Below, piece by piece: positions 1 through 6,526 of a DNA stretch of 64,000 bases (position 1 is the first letter of the stretch; every line of letters begins with the position of its first letter). The stretch is from Bacillota bacterium. Lineage in GTDB: Bacteria > Bacillota > Clostridia > Oscillospirales > Oscillospiraceae. The DNA is taken from positions 19,677-83,676 of the forward strand of contig JAETQY010000009.1 of NCBI GenBank assembly GCA_021770445.1. The letters run 5' to 3'. The notes under the pieces were generated by a model. The model searched no databases, was not told the origin of the DNA, and worked only from the letters and a program-made list of their open reading frames with translations. Made by a program: the position numbers and the translations under genes.

Positions 1-1849
1 AGAAGGCTGTTCCCCCGAACTCAGACGGAAGAGTATCGTCCACGCCCAGCAGGATCAGGTCCGCCGGGTCAATGGTGATCCCGAACTCTTCCCGGGCCTC
101 CCGGGCCGCCGCCTGTCTGGAGGTCTCCCCGGGTTCAATGTGGCCGCCGGGGCCGCAGATAGTTCCCGGGCAGAAGTCAGACTTCCTCCGCCCGATCAGA
201 ACGTAGCCGTCCTTGACCACGATTACCCCAGCGCCGTTCAATTTCCCTCCGCCCTGTTCGGCCGTAGGATCGCCGTCAGCGACGTTCTGTTGCTGGGTAG
301 GGTTGTTGTTCATCTGCCCCGGTTGCGACGTTCCCTGAGCGCCTGTGAGCCTTCCCTGGTGGTTCTCGGCTGTCCCCTGGAGTGCGGGGTCGTAAATTGC
401 ATCAGGGCCCAGCCCCCATGTCTCATCCTCGGGCTCATCGTCCAGGAGCGTGTCGATGTCGAACGTGCCCTCCTTTTCCAGTCCCCGGCGGACCTCCTCC
501 GGCCCGACCACCTGCATATCCACATACATCTGAGCGGTAGCAGCCTTGACCTGGGCGGTGTTCGCCTTGACCTGATCCACATTTGCCTGCTCCACCTCAC
601 TGAGGGACCACAGGGGGTTCATCTCCAGCTTGGGCTTCGGGTCCTCAGTGATATAACCCTGGGCCATGCCGGCCTTCACAATGATGTCCAGCAGATATTT
701 CAGGTTCGGCACCACCTGGACCTTCTGGTTGCGCTCGATATAGCTGTACCAGTTCTCCATATCCCCCTCGCCGGTGGAGTTCTCGCCCGCAGGGGATCGG
801 CCGAAGAGAACGGTCTGCGGGATGTTGGTGACAGAAGAGATGGTGGCAAAGGTAGTCTCCACAATATCCTTCACCCCGGCCAGTGACATACTCTTGAAGT
901 CGTAGGTCTCGCCGTCTGCGTCGATGGCGATGGAGTTCAGGAAGTTCCGGGCCATGTCGATCACCTGGAGCCGCCTCAGTACCGTATCCTCCCCTTCGTC
1001 GGTGGATAGGAGGTCGGCCAGGTTCTTCATGCCGTAGATGGCCTGGACGCATTTCTCCAGCATCTTCACCGCATAGGACGGCGCGGTGATGGCCTCCCGG
1101 AGCTCCTTTCTGATGCGGATGTATTCAGGGATGCCCCAATGCCGGTACTGCGTCATGGTGGATCGTTCAGGCACTTTCCCGTTTCGGAATACCAGGCACC
1201 GACTTTCATGGACGCGGAAGCTGCCGTAGATGCTGGACACGTCATAAAACTCAGGCTGAAGGAATCGGTGGCGGTAGCGGTTCCGCCCACCCTCCGCCGG
1301 GGGCTCTATGCGGTAGATGCTGTTGTAGTCAGGGATGGCAATACTCCGGTCATACACCCGCAGTTCCTCGATCCCCCTGACCGCGCCCAGGTCCAGGGGC
1401 TCATCCAGTCCCCGGCCGTCATCAATCATCATCACCGCGATGGAACCGCCATAGAGCCGGGACCACTTGATGGCCGTGGCGATGCTCTCATCCCACTCCA
1501 GCCATGCCAATGTGTCCTGGATGTACTCCTCGGCTTTCTCATCGGTCACTCCGGTCTCGAAGCCCTTCTTCACCGCCTCTTCAGCAGGGGCGTCGATGAT
1601 CTTTGAGAACAGGCCACCATCCTGATACATCTCTGTTAGGTCCATGTCGGAGACCGGACCTTCTGGAGTGTATGAGTAGGCGGTCGAGTTGTCCTGGGCG
1701 GTGCCGTACTTATTCAACAGGTTCACATATCCATCCTGGCGGAGCTGCTTGGTTTTGCCGTTGATCCGGTCCAGTGCGTTCCGGCCAGCCTCAATGCGGA
1801 GCATTTGTTGGTATCTGTTGATCTCAGCCGCGCTCTTATAATCGAACAT
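1..1849 (-). CDS. Phage portal protein (DUF1073/Phage_portal_3-like) with C-terminal Nudix hydrolase domain; runs off the window start
   Basis: Read by hand in one frame from ATG at 1849 (MFDYKSAAEINRYQQMLRIEAGRNALDRINGKTKQL...) to position 2 with no stop; C-terminal part GGKLNGAGVIVVKDGYVLIGRRKSDFCPGTICGPGGHIEPGETSRQAAAREAREEFGITIDPADLILLGVDDTLPSEFGGTAF contains GX5EX7REUXEEXGU. Confidence 0.9.
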   Translation of the reverse strand, partial: MFDYKSAAEINRYQQMLRIEAGRNALDRINGKTKQLRQDGYVNLLNKYGTAQDNSTAYSYTPEGPVSDMDLTEMYQDGGLFSKIIDAPAEEAVKKGFETGVTDEKAEEYIQDTLAWLEWDESIATAIKWSRLYGGSIAVMMIDDGRGLDEPLDLGAVRGIEELRVYDRSIAIPDYNSIYRIEPPAEGGRNRYRHRFLQPEFYDVSSIYGSFRVHESRCLVFRNGKVPERSTMTQYRHWGIPEYIRIRKELREAITAPSYAVKMLEKCVQAIYGMKNLADLLSTDEGEDTVLRRLQVIDMARNFLNSIAIDADGETYDFKSMSLAGVKDIVETTFATISSVTNIPQTVLFGRSPAGENSTGEGDMENWYSYIERNQKVQVVPNLKYLLDIIVKAGMAQGYITEDPKPKLEMNPLWSLSEVEQANVDQVKANTAQVKAATAQMYVDMQVVGPEEVRRGLEKEGTFDIDTLLDDEPEDETWGLGPDAIYDPALQGTAENHQGRLTGAQGTSQPGQMNNNPTQQQNVADGDPTAEQGGGKLNGAGVIVVKDGYVLIGRRKSDFCPGTICGPGGHIEPGETSRQAAAREAREEFGITIDPADLILLGVDDTLPSEFGGTAF

Positions 1850-1868: not shown

Positions 1869-3287
1869 TCAGGATGTCAGGCTTGCCGCGTCGAAAATCT
1901 TCTTCACGAAGCAAGTCAGCGCAACGGCGTCCGCCCGGTCGGGCGAGTCGATGTTGCGCTTTTTCATTTCTTTTTTGCTTTCCAGTTGGATTTTGCCGCC
2001 GCTGGTCACGGTGTACTTGCGAACAGATAGCTGGGCCACCAGTTCGGTGTCATTGGGCAGTTTCAGCCGCCCGGCCTCCATGGTGTCCCGGATGATGGAC
2101 CACATATAGGAAGTGATGTCCGCGAAGTAGGCCGCCGCGTCCTGATCGGGGACTTTGGCACCGAAGTTGACGGGGATGATCTCCAGTCTGGATAGGTGTT
2201 GCTCTCGCTTCACCTCGGCCAGCCGGTCCGTAACCCCTCCGCCCAGGCCGGTATCGTCGATATTGACATAGATGCGGCCCCGGTACTTCGGGTAGTCGGA
2301 CAGGAGTTTCCGGTACTGGAGAACAATGTCCCCCACCGTCCGCATGAGGTTTTGGCCCCGGCGGATGATAGGGAGAGTGGTTACGCCGCCCACATTCTGA
2401 GCGATAACGGTCTCATCGTCACCATACCGGGCCACGTCCACTCCCAGGCTGATCCTGGTGATGGGGGCCTCCAGGTCCAGGGCGATGGATTTCTCCACCA
2501 GGGTCAGGGGGATAAACACGTCATCCTCCTGCGAAGGGAAGTTCCCGAACACCCGGACCTGGACCACGTTGCTCTTTTCGCCATACTTGCGGATCAGGGC
2601 GTTGATCGTGGTTTTGTTGGTTCGGGAGCTGTCCAGGGAAGATACCTTGTGGCACCTGTAAAGGCCCCTGTTGGCTGTGTGGCTGTCATAGAAGGTCCCG
2701 GATGTCCTGGTAGGGTTCCCGCACATCAGGAGCCTGTTATTGGCACCAGAGAGAGTGCCCAGGATTGCCTCCATGATCTCATCTTCCACGCCGGACGCCT
2801 CATCCACGATGAACAGCATATTATCTTCGTGAAAGCCCTGCATATTCTCAGGCTTGGAGGCTGTCCGGGCCACGGCAAACCACCGCTTCTCAAACCCCTT
2901 CATGTAGACATAGGTTTTCGTCCACTTCAGGAGCTCCCGGAGCAAGGGGCTGTTGGACCGCCACTTTTCAACCTCGCTCCAGAGAACGTCGTGGAGCTGT
3001 TGGCGGGTGGGGGCGGTTGCAACCACGCGGGGGAACCGGAAACAGGTCAGGAACCAGAGAAGGGCCACGGCTTCAACGCCGGTCTTGCCGACGCCCTGGC
3101 CGGATCGTACCGTTACCCAGGGAGCCTCGGCCAGATCACGGAGAACGTCCTGTTGCCACTGGTCAGGCTCAAATAGGAGGACTTCCCTGGCATACAGAAC
3201 CGGGTCCTTTTGGTAGAGGGGGACGCGGCGGTTGAAGAAGTCACGGTTTTTCTTCCTCTTCGCCTGGGCCTTGGTCATCTGTGCCAT
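1869..3287 (-). CDS. terL: Phage terminase large subunit
   Basis: Walker A-like VRSGQGVGKT, IVDEASGVEDEI Walker B region, RNase H-like C-terminal (GVDVARYGDDETVIA, DDTGLGGGVTDRL); start taken at MAQMTKAQ rather than upstream M at 3344. Confidence 0.92.
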   Translation of the reverse strand: MAQMTKAQAKRKKNRDFFNRRVPLYQKDPVLYAREVLLFEPDQWQQDVLRDLAEAPWVTVRSGQGVGKTGVEAVALLWFLTCFRFPRVVATAPTRQQLHDVLWSEVEKWRSNSPLLRELLKWTKTYVYMKGFEKRWFAVARTASKPENMQGFHEDNMLFIVDEASGVEDEIMEAILGTLSGANNRLLMCGNPTRTSGTFYDSHTANRGLYRCHKVSSLDSSRTNKTTINALIRKYGEKSNVVQVRVFGNFPSQEDDVFIPLTLVEKSIALDLEAPITRISLGVDVARYGDDETVIAQNVGGVTTLPIIRRGQNLMRTVGDIVLQYRKLLSDYPKYRGRIYVNIDDTGLGGGVTDRLAEVKREQHLSRLEIIPVNFGAKVPDQDAAAYFADITSYMWSIIRDTMEAGRLKLPNDTELVAQLSVRKYTVTSGGKIQLESKKEMKKRNIDSPDRADAVALTCFVKKIFDAASLTS

Positions 3288-3720
3288 CGGGGTCCTCGCC
3301 TCCATCCTCAGTAGTGACATCGGGGATCGCATTGATCCAGTCACTCACAACATCGGTCCCGCCGCTGCCGGCCTCCTGCTCGGCCTCGAACCGCTTTTCC
3401 TCCAGCTTGATCTTGGGATTGTATCCAGCGGTATCCCGAACGAACTCAGCCGCCCGGGTGTCCCCGGTCATTGCCTTCACCAGCATCGCAGAGAGCAAAG
3501 CCATCTGATTGGTCAGGTCTCTTTCGTCAACACCCATCTTTTTCAGGTAGTCGTCTGCACCCTCCATCGCTGGCATATCCAGGAGCATCTTCATAGCCTT
3601 CGCCATGTCCCGTTTCCTGCGCCTGGAGGCCCCGCTGGCTTTCCCCCCTTTGGACTGGATCGCCCTTTGTTCGCTCGTTGTTCGCTCGGTAATCGGGATC
3701 AGGTTTTTCTCATTTGGCAT
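3241..3720 (-). CDS. terS: Phage terminase small subunit-like protein
   Basis: Immediately upstream of and overlapping terL; MPNEKNLIPITERTTSEQRAIQSKGGKASGASRRRKRDMAKAMKMLLD resembles small-subunit N-terminal pattern. Confidence 0.7.
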   Translation of the reverse strand: MPNEKNLIPITERTTSEQRAIQSKGGKASGASRRRKRDMAKAMKMLLDMPAMEGADDYLKKMGVDERDLTNQMALLSAMLVKAMTGDTRAAEFVRDTAGYNPKIKLEEKRFEAEQEAGSGGTDVVSDWINAIPDVTTEDGGEDPDGTDDQGPGEEEEKP

Positions 3721-4456: not shown

Positions 4457-5218
4457 TCACGAAACAATATCTTTTCCCTTCATCCTTTCATTGAACTCGA
4501 TGACGGAGAGAAGGAAGGGCATCTCGAAGGTCTCCGCGATGGCGGGCACGTCCTTGTCCAGACAGTGGGAGCTCCAGAACGGGGTCTCATCGTAAACGAA
4601 GGTGTGGGATTTCCCCACGCGGGGGTCCAGGGTGAAGAGTTCCCTCAGCTCCTCATAGGATACACCGATCTGTTTGGCCGTATCCCAAAACTGAGTGCAG
4701 AAGCTCACCTTGGTGGCGAGGAAGGCGTTCTCCATGTATTTTGCCAGCTCGGCCGTCTTGGCGTCGGTGATCCTGAAGGTATGCCGCCCATCATAGACCC
4801 GCTGAAGGATTTGCTGGGCTTTCAGGCAGTCGTCCCGCTGGCCGCCCAGGATCGTGAAGGGGAAGTCGAAGTTATTACAATGCTGGGTCCCGCCGTAATA
4901 CTCCGGGGAGAAGATGACGGTTTTCCCGGTGACTTTCTTCAGATGATCCACGGTCCCGGGGAGGACGGTGGACTTGACCACGAAGATGTCAGCGTCGTTC
5001 TCCAGGATGGCGTTCTCCACCTCGCGGGTGTCGCATACACACTCGCCGGGGATGTAGGGGGTATCAACGCAGACGAAGGCCGCATCATACCGCTCCCCGT
5101 CCTGGCGGGTGTTCTCATCCGGCTTGTACTTGTCGAAGATGTCCGGCTGGAGGGCGGCGATTTCCCGCTCCAGGTTGTGGCCGACGGTCCCATAACCGAT
5201 AATCAAAACCTTTTTCAT
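4457..5218 (-). CDS. UDP-glucose/GDP-mannose dehydrogenase family protein
   Basis: N-terminal Rossmann MKKVLIIGYGTVGHNL; VKSTVLPGTVDHL, FSPEYYGG, DAKTAELAKYMENAFLATKVSF motifs typical of UDP-glucose 6-dehydrogenases. Confidence 0.85.
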   Translation of the reverse strand: MKKVLIIGYGTVGHNLEREIAALQPDIFDKYKPDENTRQDGERYDAAFVCVDTPYIPGECVCDTREVENAILENDADIFVVKSTVLPGTVDHLKKVTGKTVIFSPEYYGGTQHCNNFDFPFTILGGQRDDCLKAQQILQRVYDGRHTFRITDAKTAELAKYMENAFLATKVSFCTQFWDTAKQIGVSYEELRELFTLDPRVGKSHTFVYDETPFWSSHCLDKDVPAIAETFEMPFLLSVIEFNERMKGKDIVS

Positions 5219-5970
5219 AGCTTTATATCCTGCTTTCTTTTAACTTTGGTCCTGAGAAAGACCTGAGATGCGTGTGTGGATTTGGTCAGGTAGCCCTTCC
5301 ATTTCTGCACCAGGGATTCCGTGGACGCCTCATACTCTTCCTGAGTGCGGAAGGCGCTGTTGCCGCCCACATTGTTGTCCCGAAGCTGGTAGAAGCAGTA
5401 GCGGTCATCAATCCACAGGATGCGGTCCACCAGCATATTCTTCATGCAGAAGTCGATGTCCACCTTGTACTTGTCATCCCTGAAGGTGTACTGCCGGCCG
5501 ATAACCCCGATCACGCCCCCGACCCAGCCGGTCAGCTTGAAGGGTTCGCAGCCGTTGAATTTACGGATGTCCGTTTGGGAGAAGCCGAAACAGTGAAGCC
5601 CGGCGTCATCCGCCATGACTGCCGCGTTGATGATGACCTGGGTGATTTCTTCAGGGTCCGTGATGGGCCGCGCCTTTTTCGCCGTCAGGCAGTAGAGCCG
5701 GATCAGGTCATCATCAATCATCACGATAATCCGCTCATCAAAGTGCTGGAGGACCCAATTTCGGACCCGCCCCAGGCCAATCACGCTGTCCGGGATGGTC
5801 AGGATCGGGTTCTTCACGGCGGCCCGGTATGCAGCCTCCTCGGACTCGGGGACCAGTACCTCTACGAAGTCAGGAAGGATTTCCGTTGTCGTGATCGTCT
5901 GACTGCGCCCCCGGCTCAGGATCAGCAGCTTGATGTTGTAATAGTTCAAGCAGTCTCTTTCCGTTGACAA
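5215..5970 (-). CDS. Glycosyltransferase, TET-associated glycosyltransferase (TAGT)-like, GT-A fold
   Basis: KLLILSRGRSQTITTTEILPDFVEVLVPESEEAAYR...GRVRNWVLQHF...IVMIDDDL (DxD-type motif); start uncertain because the ORF overlaps the parB-like gene by ~100 bp. Confidence 0.7.
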   Translation of the reverse strand: MSTERDCLNYYNIKLLILSRGRSQTITTTEILPDFVEVLVPESEEAAYRAAVKNPILTIPDSVIGLGRVRNWVLQHFDERIIVMIDDDLIRLYCLTAKKARPITDPEEITQVIINAAVMADDAGLHCFGFSQTDIRKFNGCEPFKLTGWVGGVIGVIGRQYTFRDDKYKVDIDFCMKNMLVDRILWIDDRYCFYQLRDNNVGGNSAFRTQEEYEASTESLVQKWKGYLTKSTHASQVFLRTKVKRKQDIKL

Positions 5971-6526
5971 CTCTGCCCACCCCCACTTTCTTTGTTGTGC
6001 CGTATCCGGCGTTGACCTTGTGGATGCCGAAGGCGTTGACCGCGTTCAGCCAATCCATCTGATTGTCAAAGACGAACACCAGGTAGTCGTGGTGCTCGAA
6101 GGCTTTCAGCTCCATGGACTCCATCCCGGTCCCGCCGGACTTCTTGGCCTCCTTCTTCACCTCTTCAGAGGGGAAGCCAAACAGGGACATATCGAACATA
6201 GGAAGGTCCAGGAGCTCCAGGTCCAGCTTCGGCAGGTTCCAGGTGGCTTGCTCCGCCGATTTATTGTCTGCCAGGCGGAAGGCTTTGACCTGCTCGGGGG
6301 TCAGGTCATCCACTCCGACGGTGGGCACTTCCTGGAGCCCCAGCTTTTGGGCGGCCTTCCAGCGGGTATGCCCGCACACAATCACATCATCGGAGTCCAG
6401 CACAATAGGGACCCGGAAGCCGAATTGCTTGATGCTCTCCGCCAGGTAGGGTACGGCGTTATCATTGTCCCGGGGGTTTCCCGGGTACGGTTTGATGTCC
6501 GCCGTTCGCTTCATCACAATTTCCAT
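5870..6526 (-). CDS. ParB/Srx-like nuclease-domain protein
   Basis: DIKPYPGNPRDND...ESIKQFGFRVPIVLDSDDVIVCGHTRWKAAQKLGLQEVPTV is a ParB N-terminal domain. Confidence 0.85.
   Translation of the reverse strand: MEIVMKRTADIKPYPGNPRDNDNAVPYLAESIKQFGFRVPIVLDSDDVIVCGHTRWKAAQKLGLQEVPTVGVDDLTPEQVKAFRLADNKSAEQATWNLPKLDLELLDLPMFDMSLFGFPSEEVKKEAKKSGGTGMESMELKAFEHHDYLVFVFDNQMDWLNAVNAFGIHKVNAGYGTTKKVGVGRVVNGKRLLELLQHQAADPEPGAQSDDHDNGNPS

Follow-up and report, generated by a model that had tools for sequence, protein, structure and literature searches.

A conserved Nudix domain on the portal protein of a Clostridia prophage is a candidate capsid-borne effector

Introduction

Fusions of Nudix domains to phage portal proteins, MuF proteins, and head proteases have been reported previously, together with the suggestion that these enzymes are packaged and injected (Iyer, Burroughs, Anantharaman, Aravind 2022, PMC9503650). 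That paper describes the fusions as T4 NudE-like and directed at NAD or ADP-ribose (ADPr), whereas the subfamily considered here is closer to MutT, MTH1, and RppH; its passages on these fusions contain no family size, no tails following the Nudix domain, and no paired downstream genes. Portal proteins have also been found fused to 2H (the fold of Acb1), InPase, or PBECR domains (Iyer 2017, PMC5512222). The portal-2H and portal-InPase proteins likewise place a nucleotide-acting enzyme on the portal, but their folds and chemistry are unrelated to those of Nudix enzymes. Beyond Iyer 2022, our literature searches on DUF1073 and on anti-defence Nudix enzymes yielded little.

A second related group are the MuF polymorphic toxins of temperate phages, in which a head protein likewise carries exchangeable C-terminal toxin-like domains accompanied by small, tail-specific downstream ORFs (Zhang 2012, PMC3482391; Jamet 2017, PMC5576092; Bxa, PMC11699363). 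In contrast to these toxins, the carrier in the lineage studied here is the portal protein (PF06381), often with a constant Nudix domain before the tail, and the member that we describe has no tail. Portal and Nudix also share one ORF in the portal family PHROG_15528 and in Faecalibacterium phage FP_Brigit (HOS62_gp30), where the annotation reads portal protein only; FP_Brigit differs by a tail of the type that we call T1 and a CPCC-type downstream ORF, both of which are missing from our protein and its locus.

The portal-Nudix fusion is thus already known in outline, and the protein presented here is a further member of this published kind. The new and more surprising element is a system of variable tails and candidate immunity genes in its relatives. 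We found no description of the portal-Nudix-tail-immunity arrangement in the main texts of the openly accessible papers that we searched.

Results and discussion

A portal-Nudix fusion in a head-packaging operon

The window, i.e., the whole stretch of 64,000 nucleotides that was analysed (G000:C31:19677-83676), opens within a gene whose frame continues in translation for 616 amino acids to the window edge without a stop (window:1-1849:-). The original prediction had read this frame as a portal protein with an in-frame C-terminal Nudix domain and an intact Nudix box, missed by the ORF list because the stop lies outside the window, and these claims all hold. Adding the sequence left of the window recovered the full ORF of 670 amino acids in a single frame (G000:C31:19513-21525, minus strand), which reaches a normal stop codon 164 bp beyond the edge, and no stop or frameshift was found between the portal and Nudix segments of the completed gene. 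L003:2514-4526 (minus strand) contains this gene in full. In Pfam searches, the protein matches PF06381, the family of HI1409/DUF1073-type portals, with E 2.1e-71 (240.9 bits against a curated cut-off of 33.8, profile positions 3-356 of 357) and PF00293 NUDIX at residues 539-644 with E 1.6e-13, far over the curated cut-off. The Nudix box is complete (G569-x5-E575-x7-R583-E584-x2-E587-E588) and follows the pattern GX5EX7REUXEEXGU including the metal-binding glutamates (Table 1). The portal family PHROG_15528 covers residues 21-663 and so already takes in the Nudix part.

Table 1. Coordinates of the portal-Nudix gene, its parts, and the adjacent terminase gene in the window.
Feature	Window position	Strand	Evidence or remark
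5' portion of the portal-Nudix gene with 616 of its 670 codons	1..1849	-	Remaining 54 codons and the stop codon are outside the window, to its left (G000:C31:19513-19676)
MutT-type Nudix domain, residues 536-616 inside the window, continuing to ~667 outside	1..244	-	PF00293, AlphaFold, Foldseek
Nudix box GHIEPGETSRQAAAREAREEFGI, residues 569-591	77..145	-	G, E, R, E, E, E identical in 111/111 fused proteins
Q/N/P-rich linker, disordered, residues 471-533	251..439	-	pLDDT <50 over 471-527 and 529-533; dN/dS 0.56
Phage_portal_3 (PF06381), residues 71-433	551..1639	-	E 2.1e-71; AlphaFold model resembles Pam3, FCWL1, T1, and E217 portals
Terminase large subunit, directly upstream of the portal-Nudix gene	1869..3344	-	phrog_2, E 1e-41

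The portal-Nudix gene is part of a head-packaging operon, with genes for a Bro-N protein, a MuF/SPP1 gp7-like protein, a DUF2213 head maturation protease, and the major head protein located downstream. From about 27 kb on, the window carries host-type genes, e.g., for a cation ATPase, and the element is therefore an integrated prophage. Beside the terminase gene, window positions 4457-6526 (minus strand) hold a UDP-glucose dehydrogenase-like gene, a gene for a TET-associated glycosyltransferase (TAGT, PF20691), and a ParB_N gene, which may be involved in DNA hypermodification in this prophage.

Distribution and conservation of the fused Nudix domain

Within the phage collection, the fusion was detected in FP_Brigit only (49% identity over 97% of the length). 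Scanning IMG/VR with linker and Nudix domain returned 80 loci and a genome scan 56; among the latter, the strong ones all come from Clostridia (Oscillospiraceae, Lachnospiraceae, and relatives) or uncultured bacteria. In total, viral contigs and Clostridia genomes hold 111 distinct portal-Nudix ORFs. Each of 60 representative Nudix ORFs matches PF00293; 49 of them also match PF06381 and four the XkdF protease family PF14550. Nudix domains are found on 114/131 distinct portal ORFs of the lineage, though this fraction is biased by loci that entered the pool by way of their Nudix domain. The recurrence of the fusion in FP_Brigit, in contigs that are 86-99% identical, and in the 111 distinct ORFs rules out chance or an assembly error.

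Judged by sequence, the fused Nudix domains are a subfamily separate from host Nudix enzymes: in a survey of 99 related genomes, they scored 151-158 bits against at most 55 for every other Nudix protein, and they occur in 3 of the 61 genomes of the genus. The box residues G/E/R/E/E/E are identical in all 111 distinct fused proteins, and CGPGGHIE and LFxPF are conserved as family-specific motifs. Relative to L007, the nearest diverged relative (86% identical), dN/dS amounts to ~0.08 for the portal, 0.11 for the Nudix domain, and 0.56 for the linker, and the Nudix domain is under purifying selection. The distance matrices of portal and Nudix are correlated (Mantel r 0.72, compared to a maximum of 0.12 in 999 permutations), indicating that both parts were mostly inherited together. 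Along with the fold described below, the invariant box, purifying selection, and co-evolution with the portal argue that the fused Nudix is no accident but a conserved and probably catalytically competent enzyme.

It is consequently extremely unlikely that we are dealing with a frameshift join or an eroding, functionless domain, given the low dN/dS and the catalytic residues that never vary among 111 proteins; at the level of sequence, this reading is refuted. Nothing in the window copy points in that direction; the relative at L077:1231-3537 has in-frame stops in both its portal and its Nudix part and is either a decaying copy or a sequencing error. The fusion in the window is real and conserved and, to judge from sequence and structural model, probably functional. 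The same Nudix subfamily is also found on an XkdF-type head protease or as a separate head-region protein, in two of these cases (L017 and L052) with a Nudix-free portal in the same locus, which supports a role as cargo over a portal-specific structural role.

Fold and likely substrate

AlphaFold models the Nudix domain alone with pLDDT 95 and pTM 0.89, and in the full-length model the domain is again well formed behind a linker that is disordered over residues 471-533, while Foldseek matches the portal part to the portals of Pam3, FCWL1, T1, and E217. For the Nudix domain, Foldseek returned 555 PDB matches at E <= 0.001, including the MutT-type 4dyw (E 1.9e-10), and its neighbours comprise 4dyw, 3r03, MutT, BdRppH, MTH1, and NUDT15. 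By profile, the best solved relatives are MTH1 (E 1e-14), BdRppH (5e-14), and MutT (1e-13). The fused family thus shares the fold and the full Nudix box with E. coli MutT, MTH1, and BdRppH, but CGPGGHIE and LFxPF are its own and Asn119 of MutT is not conserved. This asparagine is the residue with which MutT reads the 8-oxoguanine base.

Three more specific assignments were rejected. Orthology to MutT (TIGR00586, 8-oxo-dGTP diphosphatase) fails at 43.5 bits against the equivalog cut-off of 97.9 and with the loss of Asn119. Membership in the T4 NudE clade does not apply to the window protein, which scores 38 bits to phrog_1185 compared to 52 bits to phrog_1198, while T4 NudE itself scores 250 bits to phrog_1185. 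Acb1, a 2H phosphoesterase with two HxT/S motifs, is excluded by profile and fold, both of which identify the domain as Nudix. PADLOC gave one weak match over the Nudix part, PDC-S07.

These comparisons bear on what the enzyme may act upon. One option, raised in the original prediction, is anti-defence, with the Nudix degrading an immune signal of nucleotide nature such as ADP-ribose or cADPR of Thoeris-like systems, an NAD derivative, or a cyclic oligonucleotide. Its position as cargo and its conservation would suit such an early-acting function, Iyer 2022 (PMC9503650) argues that the main role of Nudix and macro domains in phages is to counteract ADPr signals, and portals with 2H phosphoesterases are on record (PMC5512222, PMC9503650). 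However, both the family and the fold comparisons lead first to MTH1, BdRppH, and MutT and not to ADP-ribose pyrophosphatases, with the ADPRase 1v8m at rank 31 only in the full-length fold search, and the match to T4 NudE, a phage enzyme with annotated activity towards ADP-ribose and FAD, is weak (87% probability over 74 columns vs. 98.8% over 112 for MutT), so that we regard this option as unlikely.

The same matches to the NTP pyrophosphohydrolases MTH1, BdRppH, and MutT would fit a housekeeping enzyme that clears damaged or unwanted (d)NTPs or acts on RNA 5' ends during assembly or early replication. This appears doubtful to us since the column that aligns with MutT Asn119 holds A/E/R/K in nearly all family members (alignment by eye), five other Nudix proteins are already encoded by the host genome, and there is no obvious reason why such an enzyme should be attached to a portal. 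Taken together, similarity slightly favours an NTP-like substrate over ADP-ribose, though it is weak evidence for Nudix enzymes.

Packaging and delivery of the Nudix domain

The reading that we prefer, with a probability of roughly 55%, is that of a capsid-borne effector: a competent MutT-type Nudix pyrophosphohydrolase that would be tethered to the portal, released, and delivered together with the DNA. The C-termini of portals of the PF06381 class face the capsid interior. With the portal being a dodecamer and the Nudix domain attached to its C-terminus through a flexible linker, up to ~12 copies of the enzyme would therefore lie beside the packaged DNA. A portal-anchored domain cannot exit the capsid without cleavage, and the Nudix may be freed by cutting of the linker, e.g., by the head maturation protease of the same operon. 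The released enzyme would then enter a new host with the phage DNA and hydrolyse nucleotides of the NDP-X type early in infection. Capsid location, cleavage, delivery, activity, and substrate are steps that we infer for the fused Nudix; that it travels as a packaged effector is plausible and in line with the published proposal. Alternatively, the Nudix could act within the procapsid or in the producing cell.

Across the family, no common cleavage motif was found in the linkers, only the clade-specific ATKLPQDMS and TSNTALSAE, both of which are absent from the window protein. ATKLPQDMS occurs in the linkers of L030, L035, L088, L097, L143, and ~25 others, and it is partly kept at the portal end in L017, where the Nudix is encoded by a separate gene; TSNTALSAE marks another clade. 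Production of a standalone Nudix from an internal start was considered and dismissed, with a Shine-Dalgarno sequence plus ATG within the linker in only 8/94 genes.

If the capsid-borne effector is indeed delivered, a nucleotide hydrolase, often together with a toxin, would enter the cell with the phage DNA. These proteins would then be concrete candidates, amenable to testing, for an early role in anti-defence or competition in Clostridia, for which few such effectors are known.

Variable tails and tail-specific downstream genes

The original prediction had proposed a cargo slot on the portal that is occupied here by a different nucleotide hydrolase. Our survey of portal C-termini bears out the slot itself, with Nudix, Nudix plus tail, tail only, or nothing in different relatives, while the idea as such is not new (Iyer 2022). 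The portal C-terminus is thus a cargo site that is used regularly in common gut phages and whose content can be exchanged, and the enzyme looks active in every member. A further C-terminal tail of at least 45 residues follows the Nudix domain in 81/127 distinct Nudix ORFs; the other 46, and likewise the window protein, end after the Nudix without a toxin-like tail. Tails comprise ADP-ribosyltransferase (ART), zeta toxin, and DUF4258-like domains and several unknown families, e.g., ADPrib_exo_Tox in L007 (E 1.6e-9), Zeta_toxin in one member (E 8e-32), and DUF4258 in three, whereas the zincin-like tail of L069 with its HExxH motif (HEMGH) has a weak LPD39 match only. Single-linkage clustering yields eight multi-member clusters and 18 singletons, and the largest cluster is found on portal plus Nudix 22 times, on a portal alone twice, and on another protein plus Nudix twice.

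The tail type goes along with small ORFs that adjoin the 3' end of the gene or overlap it. All 18 genes with T1 tails (including L004, L014, L030, L043, L053, and L065) are accompanied by a Cys_rich_CPCC (PF14206) ORF, compared to 3/101 other genes (Fisher 1.4e-18, with genes treated as independent). T0 tails (e.g., L010, L051, and L056) come with family DS1 in 15/22 and DS5 in 7/22 cases, and T4 tails (L036, L060, and L205) with DS8 in 3/3. The pairing persists on Nudix-free portals, with DS1-like ORFs in L166 and L194 and a CPCC ORF in L195. The nearest portal neighbour has the same tail for just 7/19 T1 members and 46/111 members overall, which argues for a pairing beyond simple clonality. 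No paired downstream ORF was seen for the ART-like tails that we inspected (L007, L013, L017, and L034), and no ORF of 40+ amino acids starts within 120 bp downstream of the window gene.

By analogy to MuF polymorphic toxins, we infer that a tail and its abutting ORF form a toxin-immunity pair. We tentatively suggest, at slightly less than even odds, that the portal of this Clostridia phage lineage carries a polymorphic toxin-immunity system composed of the portal, the constant Nudix, a toxin tail that can be exchanged, and an immunity gene at the 3' end that is specific to the tail, with the phage in the window as a tail-less form. If true, the portal would join the MuF toxins as a new class of carrier, with the conserved nucleotide hydrolase as an invariant second effector.

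The tails also raise the idea that the Nudix serves a toxin-delivery module in processing or control, e.g., by consuming NAD or ADPr around ART tails or by aiding loading, and that tail-less forms have retained it. It would agree with the domain order of most tailed members, in which the Nudix is flanked by the portal and the variable tail, and with the ADPrib_exo_Tox tail directly after the Nudix in L007. Yet neither tail nor Nudix requires the other, as seen from the many tail-less Nudix ORFs and from the Nudix-free tailed portals with the same downstream genes, and we consider this idea highly improbable.

Several further features of the relatives were observed. The portal-Nudix proteins at L069:3550-7920 and L076:3685-7863 are ~1400 amino acids long. 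Variable domains are preceded by junction motifs between Nudix (or portal) and tail (GGPGSG[NRH], WxTVNG, and HPRDxxGQF / NPxHDxxGRF; in L010, L011, L017, L018, L035, L083, L195, and others), which are possibly recombination or processing junctions. At L037:2772-4760, L044:5881-7809, and L054:5425-7278, an unknown tail common to the three proteins comes after the same Nudix, with the XkdF protease domain PF14550 as the N-terminus in L037. The next gene in all three loci encodes a ~405-amino-acid protein that starts with an FNPFHDxxGxF-type motif, an arrangement that may represent a multi-cargo operon.
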